A DNA stretch of 64,000 nucleotides. It comes from Magnetospirillum sp. ME-1 (lineage in GTDB: Bacteria > Pseudomonadota > Alphaproteobacteria > Rhodospirillales > Magnetospirillaceae). Position numbers and translations under genes: made by a program. Where the stretch lies: contig NZ_CP015848.1 of NCBI RefSeq assembly GCF_002105535.1, positions 3,762,926 to 3,826,925 of the forward strand. The letters are read 5' to 3'. Positions 22,917 to 62,929 of the stretch are shown one piece after another; the first letter of the stretch is position 1; the number at the start of each line of letters is the position of its first letter. Under the pieces are notes generated by a model. It saw nothing but the letters and a program-made list of their open reading frames with translations. It made no database searches and was not told where the DNA came from.

Positions 22917-25880
22917 CTATCCTTGTGTATAGTCCGGAAGCAGGTGCTCGAGGGCTTGGCGCAGATGGGGAAGCTCCACCGGCTTGGACAGATACGAGTC
23001 CATGCCGGCCTTCAGGCAGCGTTCGGCCTCGCCGGCCAGGGCGTTGGCGGTGAGCGCCAGGATGGGGGTATGGCGGCCGTCCGCCCGTTCCTCGGCCCGG
23101 ATGGCGGCGGTGAGCTGGAAGCCGTCCATGATGGGCATGTGGCAATCGGTCAGCACCAGGCAATAAGGCCTGGCGCGCCAGGCGGCCAGGGCGGCGGCGC
23201 CGTCGGGGAAGACCTCGGCGGCAAAGCCCAGCAATTGCAGCTGGCGCCGGATCACCTGCTGGTTCACCGGATGGTCCTCGGCCACCAGGATGGGGGCGCC
23301 GTCCCAGTGGCTGGGCTTCGGTTCGGGAGGAGCCGAAGGCGCGCAGGCGGGGCGGGCGGGGGCGTAGGGGCCGACCACCCTGTCCACCGCCGCCGCGATC
23401 TGGGTGCGGCTGAGGGGCCGGCTCAGGAAGCCATGGCAGGCGGGGTGCCGCTCCAGGCTGAACCGGCGGTCGGAATCCTGGCCCTCGATGAACAGAACGG
23501 GGGTGGCCTCCAGCGGGGCGAGGTCTTCACGGGTGACGGTATCGGCGGTGATCAGGGCCAGGTCGAAGGGTATCTGGGTGGTGGTGGCCTTGCGCGACGC
23601 CGCCTCGGCCTCCCTGGGGCCGGGGACGCGCACCACGGCGCCGCCGCCCTGTTCGGTCACCAGGGCGATCAGGGTCCGCTCCTCGGTGTCGGGATCCACC
23701 ACCAGGATGCGCAGGCCGATGAAGTCGGTGGTCTGCTCGGTGAGCGGCGCGGTGGTGGTGGGGGCGGGCTCGACCATGGGCAGCGGCAGGCGGCACCAGA
23801 AGGACGAGCCCTCACCAAGCCTGGATTCGAAGCCCGCGGTGCCGCCCATCAGGTCCACCAGCCGCCGGGTGATGGACAGGCCGAGGCCGGTGCCGCCGAA
23901 GCGTCTGGTGGTCGAGCTTTCGGCCTGGGTGAAGGGCTGGAACAGGCGGTCTTTCAGCGTGTCGTCGATGCCGATGCCGGTATCGACCACCCGGATGGAC
24001 AAGATGACCAGACCCTGGGCGTCGGTGCCGCCGTGGCCGACATGGATGGCGACGCGGCCTTGGGCAGTGAACTTGACGGCGTTGCCGGCAAGGTTGAAGA
24101 GGATCTGCCGCAGCCGCACGGGATCGGCCAGCACCGAGGTGGGCAGGCCGGGATCGACGAAGGCGGTGAGATTCAGCGACTTGGCCGCCGCCGCCGGGCT
24201 GACGGTCTGGACGATGCCCTCGACCAGGCGGTCGAGGTGGACGGGAACCTGCTCCAGTTCCAGCCGTCCGGCCTCGATCTTCGAGAAATCCAGCACGTCG
24301 TCGAGAATGCGCAGCAGGGCCAGGCCGGAATCCCGCGTGGTGGCCACCAGATCGCGCTGGTCGCCGTCCAGCGTGGTGTGGTCGAGGAGTTCCAGCATGC
24401 CGATCACCCCGTTCATGGGGGTGCGGATCTCGTGGCTCATGGTGGCCAGGAAGGCGGACTTGGCCTGGTTGGCGGCCTCGGCGCTTTCCTTGGCGGTGGT
24501 CAGCGCGCGGATGGCGGCGTCGCGGCCGCGATTGGCCTCGTCGAACTTGGCCAGCACCCGGTTGAAGGCGGCGGCGATCTCGGCAGCCTCGGTCTCGGGC
24601 GCGGCGGCCACCGGACGGGTGAACGAGGCGGGGTGGTCGTGGGCCTCGATCTGGGCCAGGAGATCCTGCAGCGTCCGGCGGTTGGCTTCCTCGGCGCGGC
24701 GTCCGGCCTCTTCCCGCTCGGCTTCCAGCCGCTGCTTTTCCAGGGAGTTGCGCTTGAACACCTCGACGGTGCGGGCCATGGCCGCCAGTTCGTCGTGCAG
24801 GTCGCGCCCTTCCACCTCGCGCGACCAGTCGCCGCTGGCCCCCGATTCCATGGTCTCGCGCAGGCGCTGCAGCGGCGAGCGGATGGATTGCCCGATCATC
24901 CAGCTGATCCAGGCGCCCACCAGCAGCAGGACCAGGGCGGCGCCGGCGCCCACCACGGCCAGGCGCAGCAACTGGTGGCGCGACCGGCGCTGGAGACGTT
25001 CCTCGCGGTCGCGGCCCTGGATGATCTGGCGGTCGATGGACGCCGACATGGCCGCCTGGCTGGCGTCCACCTCGTCGGTGAGAATGCGCGAGCGTTCGTC
25101 GAACCCCCGGGCGATGGCCTCGATGGCCGCCGACAGGGTGCGCGCCCGGGTGCCGATCACCGCCAGGGCGTCGCGCTGCAGATCGCTGCTGGCCAGCCGG
25201 GAGAGCGCCGGAATGGTGTCGGTGACCCGCTGCAGGCTGGCATGGGCGTTGATGGCGCCGGCGGCCACGCCGTTGAAGTAGAAGGCGTTGATGGAGATCA
25301 GGGCCTCGACGAAATTCTCGTGCGACTTGACCAGGGCCGGGCTCAAGGGATCGCCGCCGCGCGACCGGGCGGTGGAGTTGAGGATGGCGTACAGACCCGA
25401 CATCTCGCTGGTGGATTGCAGCACGTCGCTTTCGTAAAGGCGCAGGATGTCGGCGTTGATGGCCTTCAGCGTCTGGAACCCCGAGACGAAGCGCCGCGCC
25501 GCCTGATGCATGGCGTGGGCGTCGTCGGACAGCGGCTTCTGGTGGGCGGTGGCGTCGCCCATGGCCACGAACAGCTCCTCGGACCGGCGCATGGCGTCCT
25601 TCAGGAGGTCGTCGGTGGGATTGGCCAGATACTGGCGGATCATGCCCTGAAGGCGCGAGGCGCGGATGTCGATCTCGGCCAGGGCGGAGGTCCGGTGCTG
25701 GACCATGCGCAATTCGTCCAGGTCGGAATCCATCACCGAGGCGGCGTGCCAGCCCAGGCCGCCCACCGCCAGCGCCACGCAGACGTTGAGCGCCACCACC
25801 AGCGGAATGCGCCAGGCGATGGGCAGGGCCCTGATCCAACGAACGAAGCGCGCATACGCCATGGCCGGCGTCATCCCCAT
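22917..25880 (-). CDS. Hybrid sensor histidine kinase (HAMP-HisKA-HATPase-REC-REC)
   Basis: 987 residues. TM1 (~20-45) and TM2 (~310-330) flank a large helical periplasmic sensor of ~260 residues. HAMP and a coiled coil follow, then HisKA with the phospho-His in [13 protein letters not shown] (~485) and HATPase with DTGIGI and [10 protein letters not shown] first receiver-like domain lacks the normal acidic pocket and phospho-acceptor and looks degenerate. The last domain is an intact receiver ([26 protein letters not shown]). No Hpt domain is fused. Starts at 25874 or 25895 (GTG) are possible. Confidence 0.92.
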
Positions 25881-26074
25881 CCTTCGCCTCTCCACCCGCG
25901 ATGGTACAAGCGCAGACGGGGCGGGGGAAGGGCAGTGGCGGCCTTCCGGTCCCGGGCAGGAGAAAAAAGCGGCCGGACGCGGGGGACCCCTGCCTTCCGG
26001 CCGTCTTGACCAAAATCAAATATTATCGCAGCATGTTCAGCGTTCTCACAATTTTCATGTGGATATTCGCCGCC

Positions 26075-57325: not shown

Positions 57326-57375
57326 GGGAGGGATGACGGGAATGCGGGCGTCCTGCCCGCATGGGGGACCCTCAG
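57322..57375. terminator. Nested inverted repeat across two convergent stop codons
   Basis: Outer arms CTGAGGG (57322-57328) and CCCTCAG (57369-57375) include both stop codons. The inner hairpin is ATGCGGGC-gtcct-GCCCGCAT (57342-57362). It probably ends both convergent transcripts. Confidence 0.6.
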
Positions 57376-57791
57376 CCGCTGGACAGTTCCATCTCGGCCA
57401 GCAGCCAGTGCTCCATGTCCTGGCCCACCGGCCGGCCGCGGCTTTCCCAGATGGCGTAGGCCCGCTCGCGGATGCGGGCGATATCGTCGCCACGGGCCAG
57501 GATGTCCGAGACCTCCCGGTTGATGTCGATCATGCTATTGATGCGCTCGTCATTGCCCTTGGCGCCCAGGCCGTCGGTGGACAGGGCATAGGCCACCTGG
57601 CGTTCGTTGGGGAATTGCCAGGCGCGCGTCATGGCGATATGGGCCAGGGTCCGCCAGACCCGCTGGTTGCGTTCCAGCGCCTTGAGAAAGCTGGCGGTGT
57701 CGCTGGCCTTGTCCAGTTCCCGGGCCGCTTCGTCGAGCGCCAGGGCTCCGGTCTCGGCCAAGGTCAGCCTTTCCGAATTCAGGCTTGCCAT
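57372..57791 (-). CDS. FlaF-like protein with C-terminal DUF2934-like segment
   Basis: 139 residues. Residues ~15-100 resemble FlaF: ARELDKASDTASFLKALERN, then QRVWRTLAHI and INSMIDINREVSDILARG. FlaF regulates flagellin production or secretion in alphaproteobacteria. Residues ~107-135 (RERAYAIWESRGRP, EHWLLAE) match DUF2934, a short motif found in many unrelated proteins. GGAGGG lies before the ATG at 57791; a start at 57830 is possible. No flagellin gene is nearby. Confidence 0.72.
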   Translation of the reverse strand: MASLNSERLTLAETGALALDEAARELDKASDTASFLKALERNQRVWRTLAHIAMTRAWQFPNERQVAYALSTDGLGAKGNDERINSMIDINREVSDILARGDDIARIRERAYAIWESRGRPVGQDMEHWLLAEMELSSG

Positions 57792-57900
57792 CGGGTCCCT
57801 CCCGATTGCCGGATTGTCCATGCTTTTCATGGATAATCCTAGGGCGAACGGCAGGGGGATTCAATGCCGCTTAAGTGATGGACCGATGACACTTTCCCCA

Positions 57901-57955
57901 CTGATCCAGATCAAAGCGGCCCGGCGGCGGCCCTGCTATTCTTGACATGCATCAA
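57901..57955 (+). promoter_or_regulatory. FNR/FixK-type promoter with two boxes
   Basis: Box 1 CTGAT-CCAG-ATCAA (57901-57914) matches TTGAT-N4-ATCAA except at the first base. Box 2 TTGAC-ATGC-ATCAA (57942-57955) matches with one change. A -10-like TATTCT (57937-57942) puts the start near 57949, with box 1 at -41.5, the classical activator position; box 2 would lie on the start. Expression is therefore probably turned on by low oxygen. Confidence 0.7.
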
Positions 57956-57982
57956 GACATGTTTTCCGAGGGGGAGGACAGT

Positions 57983-58087
57983 ATGGTTATCGACGATACG
58001 GCCGTGATCGCCTTGACGTTCCTGGGATTCATCCTGGCGGTGACCGGCGGCCTTGCCTGGTTCGTGCTGAGCCGTCTGGGCAAGTAG
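57983..58087 (+). CDS. 34-residue membrane peptide under FNR-like control
   Basis: 34 residues: a short acidic N-terminus (MVIDDT), one strongly hydrophobic helix (ALTFLGFILAVTGGLAWFVL) and a basic end (SRLGK). GGGGGAGGA lies just before the ATG. It has its own promoter with two FNR-type boxes and its own terminator, so it is a monocistronic gene. Peptides of this size and build (CcoQ, CydX, CcoS types) often stabilise respiratory complexes, but I cannot assign it to one. Confidence 0.7.
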   Translation: MVIDDTAVIALTFLGFILAVTGGLAWFVLSRLGK

Positions 58088-58112
58088 CCGGGCGGGACGA
58101 GTGGGAAAGAAC

Positions 58113-58145
58113 AAGCCGCCGGGCCTTACCCGGCGGCTTTTCTCT
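58113..58145. terminator. Bidirectional rho-independent terminator
   Basis: AAGCCGCCGGG pairs perfectly with CCCGGCGGCTT around ccttа-type 5-nt loop, followed by TTTTCTC. It ends the small-peptide transcript and overlaps the stop region of the convergent ribbon-helix-helix gene. Confidence 0.85.
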
Positions 58146-58347
58146 TGAGTTCGTTCAGGACGAACACCCGGATGGCCGAGGACAGGTTGGCCTCGCGCGA
58201 GCAATCGATCTCGGCCACCATCTGGTTGATCGACAGGTTTCGCTCCTCCGACAGCTCCCGCAGGCACTCCCAGAATTCCGGCTCCAGGGTGACGCTGGTG
58301 GCGTGGCCGGCGATCTTGACCGAGCGCTTGGCCGGCAATCCGGTCAT
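58126..58347 (-). CDS. Ribbon-helix-helix protein
   Basis: 73 residues. KRSVKIAGHATSVTLEPEFWECLRELS (segment split by strand and helix) and NLSINQMVAEID match the ribbon-helix-helix domain of the RHH_4 type, known from alphaproteobacteria. Such proteins are small DNA-binding dimers and often repress their own operon. The start overlaps the stop of the NRPS-like gene (ATGA), so it is the third gene of that operon and a candidate regulator. Confidence 0.85.
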   Translation of the reverse strand: MTGLPAKRSVKIAGHATSVTLEPEFWECLRELSEERNLSINQMVAEIDCSREANLSSAIRVFVLNELKRKAAG

Positions 58348-61300
58348 GGCGCGGCGCTGACCGTCTGGGCGGGGGCGCCCTCCCATTGGGAGTGGGCGGG
58401 GATGCCTTCGCCCTTCATGACGATGGTCAGCTTGCCGATGCGGGCGAAGTCGCCCACCTCGGTGTCGTAGAGCACGGTGGAGCCCGATCCCACGGTGACG
58501 CCGGTGCCCAGCCTGACCCGGCCGACCTTCATCACCCTGTCCTCGTACAGGTGGGTCTGCAGCGCCGACAGCGAGTTGATGGCGCAGAAATCGCCCACCT
58601 CGACGCAGTCGAACTCGGTGATGTCGGTGGTGTCCATGAACACGCCGGAGCCGAAACGGCAGCCGTACAGCCACAGGAACCACGGCAGGAAGGGCGTGCC
58701 GCGCAGATGGTCCAGCAGCACCTTGCCCGCCAGGCCCCAGTACATCACCGCCACCGCCTCGGTGCGCAACGCCCACCACGACCACATGGGCTTGGCGGTG
58801 GGGCGGTAGGCGCCCATCATCAGCCACTTCACCGCCACCGACGACAGGGCCAGCGAGACCGAGATGGCCACCGACGCGGCCACGAACAGCGGCAGGACCA
58901 CGGCGTATTCGCGGGCCAGGATGCTGGGCGCCAGCAGGTCCACGGTCAGGATGCCGAAGGTGATGAACAGCGCGGTGGGCAGCGAGACGGCGAAGGCCTC
59001 GAACACGGCGCGCCACACCCGGCGCCACAAGGGCGGCGCGAAGGTCCAGTCGGCGCCCACATCGTCGAAGCGCTGGCGTACCGGCAGCTTGAAGGGGGGA
59101 TTGCCGAACCAGGTGTCGCCGGGCGACATCTGGTGGTTGGCCGGCGGGCGCGACTTGATGCCGATCAGGGCGCCGGTGGGGATCACCGCGCCGGGCGGCA
59201 CCACGGCGTCGTTGCCGACGAAGACGCGGGCCTCGGTCTTGACCGGCTCTAAGACCATCCAGCCGCGCCGCACGCATTCGTCGCCCAGCACCACCTCGTC
59301 GGCGATGAAGCAGCCCGGCCCGATCTCGGTCAGGTCGTAGCGTCCGGCCAGATTGCAGGAAATCTCGGCGTCCTTGCCGATCTTGGCCCCCATCAGCCGG
59401 TACCACAGCCGCATGTAGACGGTGGCGTAGAGCGACGACAGGGTTTCCAGCATCAGCTCGGTGGCCAGCGCCACGATCCATTTGCGGACGTAGAGGCTGC
59501 CATAGATGGAGAAGCTTCCCGCCGTCACCACCGGCAGCACCGTCCAGCGCACGATGGCGATCAGCAGCACGGTGACGGCGATCAGCGCCATGGCGGTGGG
59601 CCAGGCCAGCAGCGGCAGGATGGTGGCGTATTCGCCGCCGACGAAATAATCGCTGAGGCGTTCGAAGATGAAGAAGGCCGGGAAGATGGGCAGCAGGCTG
59701 ATGGGCGGCAGCACCACCAGCATCAGGCCGTAGAGGATGGTCAGCGCCAGCTTGCGCCCGACGGTGGCGTGGGCGGCCTGGGGCAGGGCGGCTTCGTCCA
59801 CCATGCCCACCTTGCGGCCGGGCGAGCCGTCCCAGTGCTCGTAACGGCCCACCCGCGTGTCGGGGGCGATGGAGGTGAGGTCGCCGACCTCGCCCCCCGT
59901 CTCGATCACCACGCCGTGGCTGATCATGCATGAGGTGCCGATGAAGGCGTCGTCGCCGATACGGATAGGGCCGATCACCAGTTCGTCGCCCACCGCCTCG
60001 GCATTGGCCAGCCGGGTCTTGCCGCCGATGGCCACGCCGTCGCCGATGCTCACCAGGTCGAAGGCGCCGGCCTCCATCTCGGACAGGACGCAGTCGCTGC
60101 CCACCCTGGCACCCAGCAGGCGCAGGTAGATGCTCATGATGGGCGTGCCCTGGAACCACTTGATATGGGCGACACTGACCACCCTTTGCGCCAGCCACCA
60201 GCGGAAATAATAGGTGCCCCACAGCTTGTAGCGGCCGGGCCTGGTCCGGCCGAGGATCAGCCATTTGAGCGCGATGGAGGCCGAGATGGTGCCGATGTTG
60301 ATCACCGCGTAGGTAATCATCAGGGTGACCATCTCCTTCAGCCAGCTGGCATCCTCGCCCGACAGCAGCATGTAGGAGATGAACACCCCCAGCCACGGCG
60401 CGGTGGTCAGCGCCAGAATGAAGGGCATGGCCACGCCCTGGGCCAGTCCGCACAGGAAACGGCGCTTCCAGCTCGGCGGAATGAAGGACAAATCGGCGGG
60501 TTTGGCGCCGGGGGCGGGCGCGCGGGCGGCGAGTAACGCCCCCATGGCGCGAAGGGTGCGCGCCGCGTAGATCTCGTTCAGCGTCAGGCTGGCCAGGTCC
60601 GGCGTCTCGCGCACCGCCGAGACGAATTTGGCGGCCAGCAGGGAATGGCCGCCCAGATCCAGGAAGAAATCCGCCTCGAAGGGAATGACCTGACCGGGAA
60701 ACACCCGGCGCGCCGCGTCCAGCAGGGCGGCTTCCGTCGCATTGGCGGGCTCTTCCTGCTCGGCGCCGCCCACCGACAGGTCCAGCGGCAGGTCTTTGAG
60801 CGCCTTGCGGTTCAGCTTGCCCGATGTCAGGCGCGGCAGCTCGTCCACCACCAGGTAATGGGACGGAACCATGTAGGCGGGCAGCTGGGCGCGCAGGCCT
60901 TCCCGGAGCGTGCCGGATTCGATGGTGGCGCCGGCTTCGGGCAGGATGGTGGCCACCAGCCGCTCGATGCCGTCGTCGGTGCGCAAGGAAACCGCCGCCT
61001 GATTGATGCCGGGCAGGGCCGACAGGCGGGCCTCGATCTCGCCCAGTTCGACGCGGAAGCCCCGGATCTTGACCTGATCGTCGATGCGGCCGTGGAAGAC
61101 GATGTCGCCGTTTTCGTCCATGGCCGCCGCGTCGCCCGAACGGTAGAGCACCGGGGCGGAGCCGTCGGTGTCCCAGGGATTGGGGATGAATTTCTCGGCG
61201 GTGAGTTCCGGGCGGCCGAGATAGCCGGCCGCCACGCCCGGCCCGCCGATCAGCAGTTCGCCGGTGGCGCCGGGGGGGACCGGCTGGGTGAAGTCGTCCA

Positions 61301-62321
61301 CCACGTGGCAGACGTAATTGGGAATGGGCCGGCCGATGGTCACCGGCTTGCCCGCCTCCACCTCGGCCACGGTGGCCACCACGGTGGTCTCGGTGGGGCC
61401 GTAGGAATTGAAGATGCGCCGCCCGGGGCGGCACCAGCGCTCGGCCAAAGCGGGCGGGCAGGCCTCGCCGCCCAGGATGATGACGCGCAGGCCGGGAATG
61501 TCGCCGGGCAGCAGGCTCAGCAGGGTCGGCACGGTGTCGAGCACCGTGATGCCGGCCTCGGCCAGCACGCTCGGCAGCCGGTCGGCTTCGGCCAGGGTGC
61601 GGCGCCCGGCGATCCACAGCTTCGCCCCCACCAGATAGGGGACGAAGATTTCTTCCAGCGACAGGTCGAAGGCCACCGAGGCGCCCTGGAACACCACGTC
61701 GTCGGAGCGCAGGCCGTAGATGGAATTGGCGGCGCGCAGGTAGTGGCAGATGTTGGCGTGGCTGATGACGATGGCCTTGGGCTTGCCGGTGGAGCCCGAG
61801 GTGTAGATGGCGTAGGCGGGGTCGGAAGGGCAGGCGCCCTGGGCGCGCGGGTCGGGGCTGGCGCCGTCCGGCGCGCCTTGCTCCAGCGTCGGCAGGATCA
61901 GGGTGTGGGCCGGCATGGCCCCCGTGATGGCCCCCATGGTGAAGGCGTCGACGATCAGCGCCTTGGCGGCGCAATCGTCCAGGCATTCCGCCACCCGCTC
62001 GGCCGGCGCCTCGGTGTCGAAGGGGATGTAGGCGGCGCCCGCGGCCAAGATGCCCAGCAGCGCCACGTGCAGATCCAGCGAGCGGCTCATCCACAGCCCG
62101 ACGAAATCGCCGCGTCCGATGCCCCGGGCCGCCAGGGCGCGGGCCACTTTCTGGGCGCGGGCCGACAGCTCGCCATAGCCCAGCGTCACCTCGCCGAAGG
62201 TGGCGGCGGGCGCATGGGGAAACGCCCGGACGCTGGCGGAAAAGATTTCCCACAGGGTTTCGTCGCGGATCAGCGAAGGATCGCGGAGGCCGAAGAGGGC
62301 TGAAGGCAAGGACTGTGTCAC
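58344..62321 (-). CDS. Pls/PosA-type non-ribosomal peptide synthetase (A-T-membrane domain)
   Basis: 1325 residues from the GTG at 62321 (GGGA upstream, overlapping the PPTase stop). The adenylation domain (~20-515) has YTSGSTGKPK, FNSYGPTE, LYRSGD, RIDDQVKIRGFRVE and the A10 lysine in TSGKLNRKAL. The carrier domain has the phosphopantetheine Ser560 in DLGGHSLLAAKF. The remaining ~700 residues are a Pls/PosA-type terminal domain with about six or seven membrane helices and hexapeptide-repeat stretches. Related enzymes such as poly-lysine synthetase join amino acids without condensation domains. The amino acid cannot be read safely. Confidence 0.88.
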   Translation of the reverse strand: MTQSLPSALFGLRDPSLIRDETLWEIFSASVRAFPHAPAATFGEVTLGYGELSARAQKVARALAARGIGRGDFVGLWMSRSLDLHVALLGILAAGAAYIPFDTEAPAERVAECLDDCAAKALIVDAFTMGAITGAMPAHTLILPTLEQGAPDGASPDPRAQGACPSDPAYAIYTSGSTGKPKAIVISHANICHYLRAANSIYGLRSDDVVFQGASVAFDLSLEEIFVPYLVGAKLWIAGRRTLAEADRLPSVLAEAGITVLDTVPTLLSLLPGDIPGLRVIILGGEACPPALAERWCRPGRRIFNSYGPTETTVVATVAEVEAGKPVTIGRPIPNYVCHVVDDFTQPVPPGATGELLIGGPGVAAGYLGRPELTAEKFIPNPWDTDGSAPVLYRSGDAAAMDENGDIVFHGRIDDQVKIRGFRVELGEIEARLSALPGINQAAVSLRTDDGIERLVATILPEAGATIESGTLREGLRAQLPAYMVPSHYLVVDELPRLTSGKLNRKALKDLPLDLSVGGAEQEEPANATEAALLDAARRVFPGQVIPFEADFFLDLGGHSLLAAKFVSAVRETPDLASLTLNEIYAARTLRAMGALLAARAPAPGAKPADLSFIPPSWKRRFLCGLAQGVAMPFILALTTAPWLGVFISYMLLSGEDASWLKEMVTLMITYAVINIGTISASIALKWLILGRTRPGRYKLWGTYYFRWWLAQRVVSVAHIKWFQGTPIMSIYLRLLGARVGSDCVLSEMEAGAFDLVSIGDGVAIGGKTRLANAEAVGDELVIGPIRIGDDAFIGTSCMISHGVVIETGGEVGDLTSIAPDTRVGRYEHWDGSPGRKVGMVDEAALPQAAHATVGRKLALTILYGLMLVVLPPISLLPIFPAFFIFERLSDYFVGGEYATILPLLAWPTAMALIAVTVLLIAIVRWTVLPVVTAGSFSIYGSLYVRKWIVALATELMLETLSSLYATVYMRLWYRLMGAKIGKDAEISCNLAGRYDLTEIGPGCFIADEVVLGDECVRRGWMVLEPVKTEARVFVGNDAVVPPGAVIPTGALIGIKSRPPANHQMSPGDTWFGNPPFKLPVRQRFDDVGADWTFAPPLWRRVWRAVFEAFAVSLPTALFITFGILTVDLLAPSILAREYAVVLPLFVAASVAISVSLALSSVAVKWLMMGAYRPTAKPMWSWWALRTEAVAVMYWGLAGKVLLDHLRGTPFLPWFLWLYGCRFGSGVFMDTTDITEFDCVEVGDFCAINSLSALQTHLYEDRVMKVGRVRLGTGVTVGSGSTVLYDTEVGDFARIGKLTIVMKGEGIPAHSQWEGAPAQTVSAAP

Positions 62322-62929
62322 GTTGTTCCCGGTTTTGGCGAGGTCTCGGCGCGGGCGGCGATGACCAGAACCTCGTCGATGGGGAGGGTATACCAAGTCA
62401 CGGCATAACATTCACCCCCTACATGCATCTGAATGGGCCGCCAGGGGGGCGGCGCCGACAGGTCGTCCAGATGCGCCAGGGCGGGTTCGGCCAGGCCATG
62501 GACGATGCCGGTGCCGCGCGCCTTCAAAACCGCTTCCTTGGCGGTCCACAGCCGGGCGAAGGCCAAGGCGCGGTCCGGCGGGGGCAGGGCGGTGAGCCGG
62601 GCCCGTTCGGCGGGGGCGAAGGTGGCGGATGCGTCCTCCCACACCGGGATGCAGCGCTGGACGGTCTCGATGTCGGCGCCCACCGGTCCGGTGCGCGAGC
62701 TGGCGATCAGCAGCAACCCGTCCACGGACGAGCAGTTGAACCAGTACTTGAGGTGGGGGTCGGTGAGGCGCGGCTTGCCGAACGGGTCGCGCTCGATGGC
62801 GATGTCGGCCTCGGGCCGTCCCAGTTCGGCCGCCAGATGGCCGAGCAGGGCGCGCCGCCGGGCTTCCGGGGCGGCGGCGAGGCCGGCATAAAGCCGGGTT
62901 TGGCCATCTAATCGCATCGACTCCGACAT
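62318..62929 (-). CDS. 4'-phosphopantetheinyl transferase (Sfp type)
   Basis: 203 residues. GPVGADIETVQRC supplies one magnesium ligand, and FARLWTAKEAVLKARG is the WxxKEA motif of Sfp-type transferases. ERDPFGKPRL and YWFNCSSVDG are also standard. It activates carrier domains by adding phosphopantetheine. Its stop overlaps the start of the NRPS-like gene by four bases, so it very probably activates that enzyme's Ser560. The ribosome site at 62929 is weak; an ATG at 62917 is possible. Confidence 0.92.
   Translation of the reverse strand: MSESMRLDGQTRLYAGLAAAPEARRRALLGHLAAELGRPEADIAIERDPFGKPRLTDPHLKYWFNCSSVDGLLLIASSRTGPVGADIETVQRCIPVWEDASATFAPAERARLTALPPPDRALAFARLWTAKEAVLKARGTGIVHGLAEPALAHLDDLSAPPPWRPIQMHVGGECYAVTWYTLPIDEVLVIAARAETSPKPGTT

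Follow-up and report, generated by a model that had tools for sequence, protein, structure and literature searches.

A conserved 34-codon gene behind a predicted FNR class II promoter in Magnetospirillum, a candidate small subunit of the cbb3 oxidase

Introduction

What does a 34-codon open reading frame (ORF) do when it stands alone behind an apparent FNR-type promoter in Magnetospirillum sp. ME-1? The ORF lies in a 64-kb stretch of DNA (hereafter the window) of a genome assembled as a single contig of 4.55 Mb. An earlier note, made from the sequence alone, read the locus as a class II FNR promoter that drives a likely low-oxygen-induced small subunit or regulator of a respiratory complex. 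Small oxidase subunits are easily missed by annotation. The cbb3 oxidase serves these cells for respiration at very low oxygen. In M. gryphiswaldense, two studies link the cbb3 oxidase to magnetosome formation (PMC9549626; PMC7676999), and the peptide would therefore be testable in a tractable model.

Results

Architecture of the locus

The unit and its immediate neighbours, in window coordinates, comprise the following features.

57372–57830, − strand: divergent upstream gene, DUF2934, with weak similarity to FlaF (below cut-off); outside the unit
57901–57914, + strand: FNR-type box 1, CTGATCCAGATCAA, 9/10 consensus positions, centre 57907.5, at −41.5 from the predicted +1
57937–57942, + strand: −10 element TATTCT, extended form TGCTATTCT from 57934
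57942–57955, + strand: FNR-type box 2, TTGACATGCATCAA, 9/10 consensus positions, centre 57948.5, covering the predicted +1, 41 bp from box 1
57970–57978, + strand: putative ribosome-binding site GGGGGAGGA, GGAGG at 57973–57977, 5-nt spacer before the ATG
57983–58087, + strand: 34-codon ORF MVIDDTAVIALTFLGFILAVTGGLAWFVLSRLGK, ATG at 57983, TAG at 58085–58087, one predicted transmembrane helix
58113–58139, + strand: intrinsic-terminator-like hairpin with a T-rich tail; the terminator scan scores both strands
58126–58347, − strand: convergent RHH_4 ribbon-helix-helix gene, a recurrent convergent neighbour in several genera; the hairpin overlaps its 3′ end

With the predicted +1 at 57949, the centre of box 1 falls at exactly −41.5 and 6 nt remain after the −10 element, so that both predicted requirements of class II activation by FNR, a TTGATN4ATCAA-type box at −41.5 and a −10 element, are present. 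The promoter anatomy in the earlier note (box 1 at −41.5, TATTCT, box 2 over the start) held when its coordinates were rechecked, as did the ribosome site and the terminator that it assigned to the unit. A standard sigma-70 scan returns no promoter at the locus, as expected if the promoter depends on class II activation and has no −35 element. An alternative in-frame ATG at 57947 lies 5′ of the predicted +1 and would add an N-terminal stretch that is not conserved among relatives; a product of 34 residues is therefore likely.

The window holds six FNR-type sites within one mismatch of the consensus against 0.55 expected, a number reached by none of 100 shuffles. Across the whole genome, 136 palindromic sites differ from TTGATN4ATCAA at no more than one position; the reversed pattern, a rough control, gives 9. 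Other one-mismatch sites in the window lie at 25288–25301 and 26006–26019.

The surrounding DNA carries further conserved elements. A TGAC at 57887–57890, 14 nt 5′ of box 1, is aligned and invariant in 10 genus loci. Between the FNR promoter and the DUF2934 gene lies a block, ATAATCCTAGGGCGAA...GATTCAATGCCGC (57833–57880), whose conservation is strong in six of the seven closest loci and partial in L004; it is perhaps the promoter of that divergent gene. On the other side, the hairpin at 58113–58139 may serve the convergent gene too, because both strands score. The RHH_4 gene is probably a positional neighbour rather than a partner, and the orphan loci that were read share no fixed same-strand partner gene. 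Next to it, 58344–62411 (− strand) encodes a large NRPS-like adenylation/carrier protein whose C-terminal part resembles hexapeptide repeats; by eye, such a gene adjoins the RHH gene in L068 and L077 too.

Coding status and conservation of the peptide

A search with the peptide finds it in 21 of 60 related genomes at E<1e-3, its own genome (G000) included, and a profile built from 17 of those sequences reports it at E≤1e-3 in 37 of 297 order genomes, all of which belong to two families. Across a phylum-wide sample of 398 genomes, strong matches are confined to G000 and G024, followed by G668 (2.1e-6), with the remainder at 8e-4 or worse. Substitutions among the 12 genus loci (66 pairs) give a pN/pS of 0.23 in the ORF frame. 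The two remaining forward frames give 1.53 and 2.42, and the reverse frames 1.35, 0.41 and 4.92; over 19 loci (21 minus L018 and L019) the ORF frame gives 0.42. The earlier note had named a lack of conservation of the peptide as one ground for refuting its reading; this distribution and the pN/pS of 0.23 show that the peptide is conserved.

These values also bear on a non-coding reading of the locus, in which the transcript would be an FNR-controlled small RNA and the ORF incidental. A short single unit with its own predicted promoter and terminator-like hairpin would suit such an RNA. However, the low pN/pS is peculiar to the ORF frame among the forward frames (one reverse frame reaches 0.41), the ATG stands in the same place in all 34 orphan loci, and the sequence past the stop codon varies among loci, which makes this explanation very improbable. 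On these sequence grounds, the 34-residue ORF is a real, conserved gene.

The predicted structure of the 34-mer is a single helix spanning residues 5–32 (mean pLDDT 94.8), and the hydropathy of residues 7–25 is high (KD19 2.25). In a chosen set of 21 family sequences, M1, D4, A7, A10 and L24 are invariant and G23 is nearly so. The N terminus is net negative and the C terminus positive, and by the positive-inside rule this 34-residue inner-membrane protein would have its N terminus outside and its C terminus inside.

The peptide has no Pfam family up to E 10, including any CcoQ/FixQ-type match, and no NCBIfam family; a match to NCBIfam Psb35 scored 17.1 bits against a cut-off of 40 and was taken as chance. 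A search of the PDB with a peptide profile (A1) gave three weak matches, none of them CcoM, a plasmid collection gave none, and a search of one literature collection found no paper that prints the three peptide fragments searched. The gene is thus absent from the family libraries searched (Pfam and NCBIfam), and gene finders easily miss it.

In the AT-rich genome G668, two tandem short membrane ORFs (L165:5059–5501, − strand) match the profile at E 2.1e-6 and 3.6e-6 and adjoin what reads as a truncated haemoglobin gene. No FNR-like site (≥7/10) lies within 160 nt of them and no cco gene was recognised nearby; they are possible distant relatives of the peptide and were left out of the counts. 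Likewise, no cco context was recognised for a match in G302, which like G668 lies outside the two families.

Pairing of the box and the peptide across relatives

The earlier note had proposed looking in relatives for the same promoter–peptide pair, and the pair is there. Taking one orphan locus per genome (34 loci) and searching from −95 to −66 relative to the ATG, the best FNR match reaches at least 8/10 in 32 loci and at least 9/10 in 20. All 32 boxes fall between −71 and −86. Of 9300 equally sized control windows taken from other parts of these loci, 1.8% reach 8/10. Boxes are missing from L018 and L019, and from L070 (G292) and L071 (G290), which were left out of this count; including the latter two, 32 of 36 orphan loci carry a box of at least 8/10. 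The spacing from the box to a TANNNT motif is identical in 29 of the 34 loci and deviates by at most 1 nt in 31. The pairing is conserved across genera and into a second family.

Box 2 has a narrower distribution. At least 7 of 8 TTGAN6TCAA positions are matched at +41/+42 from box 1 in 12 of 32 loci (L018 and L019 left out), namely 11 of the 12 genus loci and L021. A box over the transcription start is a feature of promoters that FNR switches off. Activation at low oxygen alone leaves box 2 unexplained: when FNR occupancy is high, a box in this position would be expected to turn the gene off.

Five of six divergent paralogs adjoin ccoG

Six further copies are divergent and begin with MHLD or MYLD (L059, L060, L063, L065, L067 and L069); L067 is the only copy in G008 and is counted here. 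Five of the six adjoin a ccoG gene that exceeds its curated cut-off. In L063, L065 and L069, ccoG is next downstream on the same strand as the paralog. In L059 and L060, ccoG is divergent, a TehA/TDT-like transporter is next downstream (below the model cut-off in L059, by eye in L060), and a ccoN over cut-off lies ~2 kb away. L067 lies away from ccoG, beside a gene for a CoA-disulfide-reductase-like protein. The interval between ccoP and ccoG of the ME-1 genome was searched for a copy of the peptide, and none was found.

None of the six paralogs has an FNR box upstream. Most have, by eye, a TTGCGAATTGTCAA-like site instead, which suggests that another CRP/FNR-family regulator acts on them, and a gene for a regulator of this family lies near the copies in L059, L060, L063 and L069.

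The company kept by these copies weighs on whether the peptide belongs to a respiratory enzyme at all. It could instead act on its own, as a small membrane protein that regulates a sensor kinase, transporter or protease or as a stress peptide that damps the membrane, as its small size and its orphan position with no fixed same-strand partner at the loci read would allow. We consider this rather unlikely, given the strict conservation of the FNR box, the ccoG-adjacent paralogs and the purifying selection on the residues.

Co-occurrence with respiratory genes

Two respiratory systems of the ME-1 genome carry perfect FNR boxes, one ~145 bp before the called ccoN start and another ~2.5 kb before a nosZ-like gene, and FNR control alone therefore cannot pick cbb3 over denitrification. 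A gene for an FnrL/FixK/FNR-like regulator lies directly 3′ of the cco assembly genes (L081, C1:2544000–2560000; below curated cut-offs). The cco operon contains separate genes that read by eye as ccoQ, ccoH and ccoS, so that these known small cbb3 proteins are already accounted for.

We then compared bearers and non-bearers of the peptide among the 60 relatives, the 23 bearers being the 21 found by the peptide search plus G019 and G038, found by the profile. The following comparisons ignore kinship, and some genomes are incomplete. A ccoN match is present in 23/23 bearers and 29/37 non-bearers (p=0.019), and the eight genomes without one are all non-bearers. A nosZ-like match (TIGR04244, E≤1e-20) is present in 22/23 bearers and 18/37 non-bearers (p=0.00016), although the curated NosZ cut-off is passed in only 10/60 genomes and many of the counted matches fall below it. 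Counting G008 as a bearer changes these values to p=0.017 for ccoN and 6e-5 for nosZ-like. Within the genus, nosZ-like matches occur in 12/12 bearers against 2/5 others (p=0.015). These five (G004, G006, G008, G011 and G015) have ccoN and no orphan copy that we could find: nosZ is missing, along with the peptide, from G004, G006 and G015, while G008 and G011 have both ccoN and nosZ. The draft genome G019 may be a denitrification-negative bearer of the orphan gene with an FNR box.

No result weighs more heavily against a simple cbb3 reading than this co-occurrence, which is tighter with nosZ-like genes than with ccoN. It would fit a peptide that FNR switches on under anoxia and that helps to assemble a denitrification complex, either nitric oxide reductase or the membrane machinery of Nos/Nap, or belongs to one as a small subunit, as would the perfect FNR box before the nosZ-like gene. 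The L065 region adds to this, as it holds ccoG together with genes read as norE/norD/norQ-like, for which the only matches are subunit III-like and GvpN-like AAA, both below cut-offs. Set against these points are the few genomes that exceed the NosZ cut-off and the kinship that the counts ignore. No copy lies beside nos, nir or nap genes in the 19 loci whose contexts were read by eye, and the ccoG and ccoN neighbours indicate cbb3. Furthermore, one would expect box 2, placed over the start, to repress the gene under full anoxia. On balance, we regard a role in denitrification as credible, if unlikely.

The same comparison addresses cytochrome bd oxidase, which has a small subunit of a known kind, CydX. 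A cydA match occurs in 5/23 bearers and 11/37 non-bearers (p=0.56; kinship ignored, some genomes incomplete), and within the family it is rarer in bearers (5/22 against 9/14, p=0.018). With no cydA match in the ME-1 genome and none in 18 of the 23 bearers, a CydX-like role is largely refuted and hardly credible. To our knowledge, CydX-type genes lie in cyd operons, a further point against this role.

Discussion

We favour a reading in which the cbb3 oxidase carries the peptide as a small accessory subunit with a CcoM-like role, and judge the prospects of this reading to be about even. The partner is one that we infer, and the link to a respiratory complex drawn by the earlier note gains indirect support from the ccoG-adjacent paralogs, the two of them near ccoN, and a CcoM-like anatomy.

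In the model that we infer for the cbb3 oxidase, the gene would be transcribed alone, to make an inner-membrane protein of 34 residues with a single helix in the predicted topology. As oxygen falls, a regulator of the FNR family would bind box 1 and activate class II transcription. In the genus, once regulator occupancy is high, box 2 at the start site would weaken transcription or stop it, leaving a microoxic window of expression. The peptide would dock on the cbb3 oxidase and stabilise it. Such damping at high regulator levels would be a better match for an oxidase that works under microoxic conditions than for a denitrification enzyme needed under anoxia.

Expression data from M. gryphiswaldense bear on this model. 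In one study, ccoNOQP is up 1.6- to 2.4-fold under anoxia (PMC9549626). In another, terminal-oxidase transcription is unchanged in an Mgfnr mutant (PMC4065386), and the regulator of the predicted promoter may therefore be another protein of the FNR family.

Several points count against the cbb3 reading. Profile searches fail to connect the peptide with CcoM by sequence, nosZ-like genes co-occur with it more tightly than ccoN does, and five genus members have ccoN without an orphan copy. To these may be added the lack of an FNR box at all six paralogs, the nor-like genes in L065 and the Mgfnr mutant result.

If the reading holds, a second lineage with a CcoM-like layout and cco-linked paralogs would suggest that a detached mini-subunit under its own regulation may be a frequent part of cbb3 oxidases. 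More tentatively, and with some doubt, Magnetospirillum-type bacteria might possess their own CcoM-type cbb3 subunit, unrelated to CcoM or diverged past recognition, with the orphan FNR/class II layout seen in Pseudomonas. In the genus, box 2 would confine its expression to a microoxic pulse, and it would set the stability of cbb3 in the very oxygen window in which magnetosomes form.

Comparison with known promoters and small subunits

The 34-codon gene shares a box at −41.5 and a −10 element with FNR class II activated promoters, and differs from them in having two boxes 41 bp apart ahead of a lone 34-codon gene. CcoQ, CcoS and CcoH are also small membrane proteins of the same oxidase system; they are encoded by separate genes (by eye) in the ME-1 cco operon, whereas the peptide matches no Pfam family. 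CydX is a single-helix subunit of cytochrome bd oxidase similar in size to the peptide, and the ME-1 genome has no bd oxidase match.

The closest counterpart is CcoM (PDB 5djq, chain N), which a passage of PMC10433244 describes as a 36-aa subunit of the Pseudomonas stutzeri cbb3 oxidase. Its hallmark is that it is a subunit of the purified enzyme and needed for its stability. The literature passages found describe CcoM from Pseudomonas only, and the search of the literature collection found no paper with both Magnetospirillum and CcoM. Homologs of CcoM occur in phylum genomes outside the class of the window, probably Pseudomonas and other Gammaproteobacteria. We used 19 of 20 such loci, leaving out a partial match (L133); full-length matches in G685 and G346 lie outside the set.

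The sequence link between the two peptides is weak. Searching the 60 relatives with a CcoM profile (A3, made from the PDB chain and 12 of the 19 loci) did not recover the peptide, even with the threshold at E≤10, and searching the 19 CcoM genomes with the peptide profile (A2, made from the 21 chosen sequences) likewise did not recover CcoM at E≤10. Recurrent matches of 57–64 codons in the CcoM genomes were rejected, as the four looked at read as ORFs inside other genes. An hhalign comparison aligns columns 1–30 without gaps (P 6.8e-4), with a probability of only 27%. After trimming of the alignments the score is 16.5, a value that 0/400 full shuffles, 8/400 shuffles of columns 2–29 and 20/400 core-only shuffles reach. 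Ungapped, the two peptides are identical at M1, D4, G15, A19, G23, F27 and K34, while T13, V14 and D31 of CcoM, invariant in 13 CcoM sequences, are not shared, and CcoM belongs to another bacterial class.

In layout the two genes are alike. CcoM homologs carry a box of at least 8/10 at −78 to −84 in 16 of 19 loci (control: 1.6% of 5136 windows) and TANNNT at 28–29 nt from the box in 18 of 19. They begin with MxxD in 18 of 19 (MxxD or MxxG overall) and have one hydrophobic stretch and a basic tail. Class II spacing is common to FNR-activated genes, and the promoter match is therefore not specific to CcoM. Since the layout is CcoM-like and the sequence link weak, we describe the peptide as one that may work like CcoM rather than filing it as CcoM. 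Both are lone genes with an FNR/ANR-type box ~80 nt before the ATG at class II spacing, and both encode ~35 residues with an MxxD start, a single hydrophobic helix and a basic C terminus. Several CcoM homologs have, by eye, a hairpin or T-run 3′ of the gene, as the peptide gene does, and in both cases a cbb3 oxidase is encoded in the same genome.
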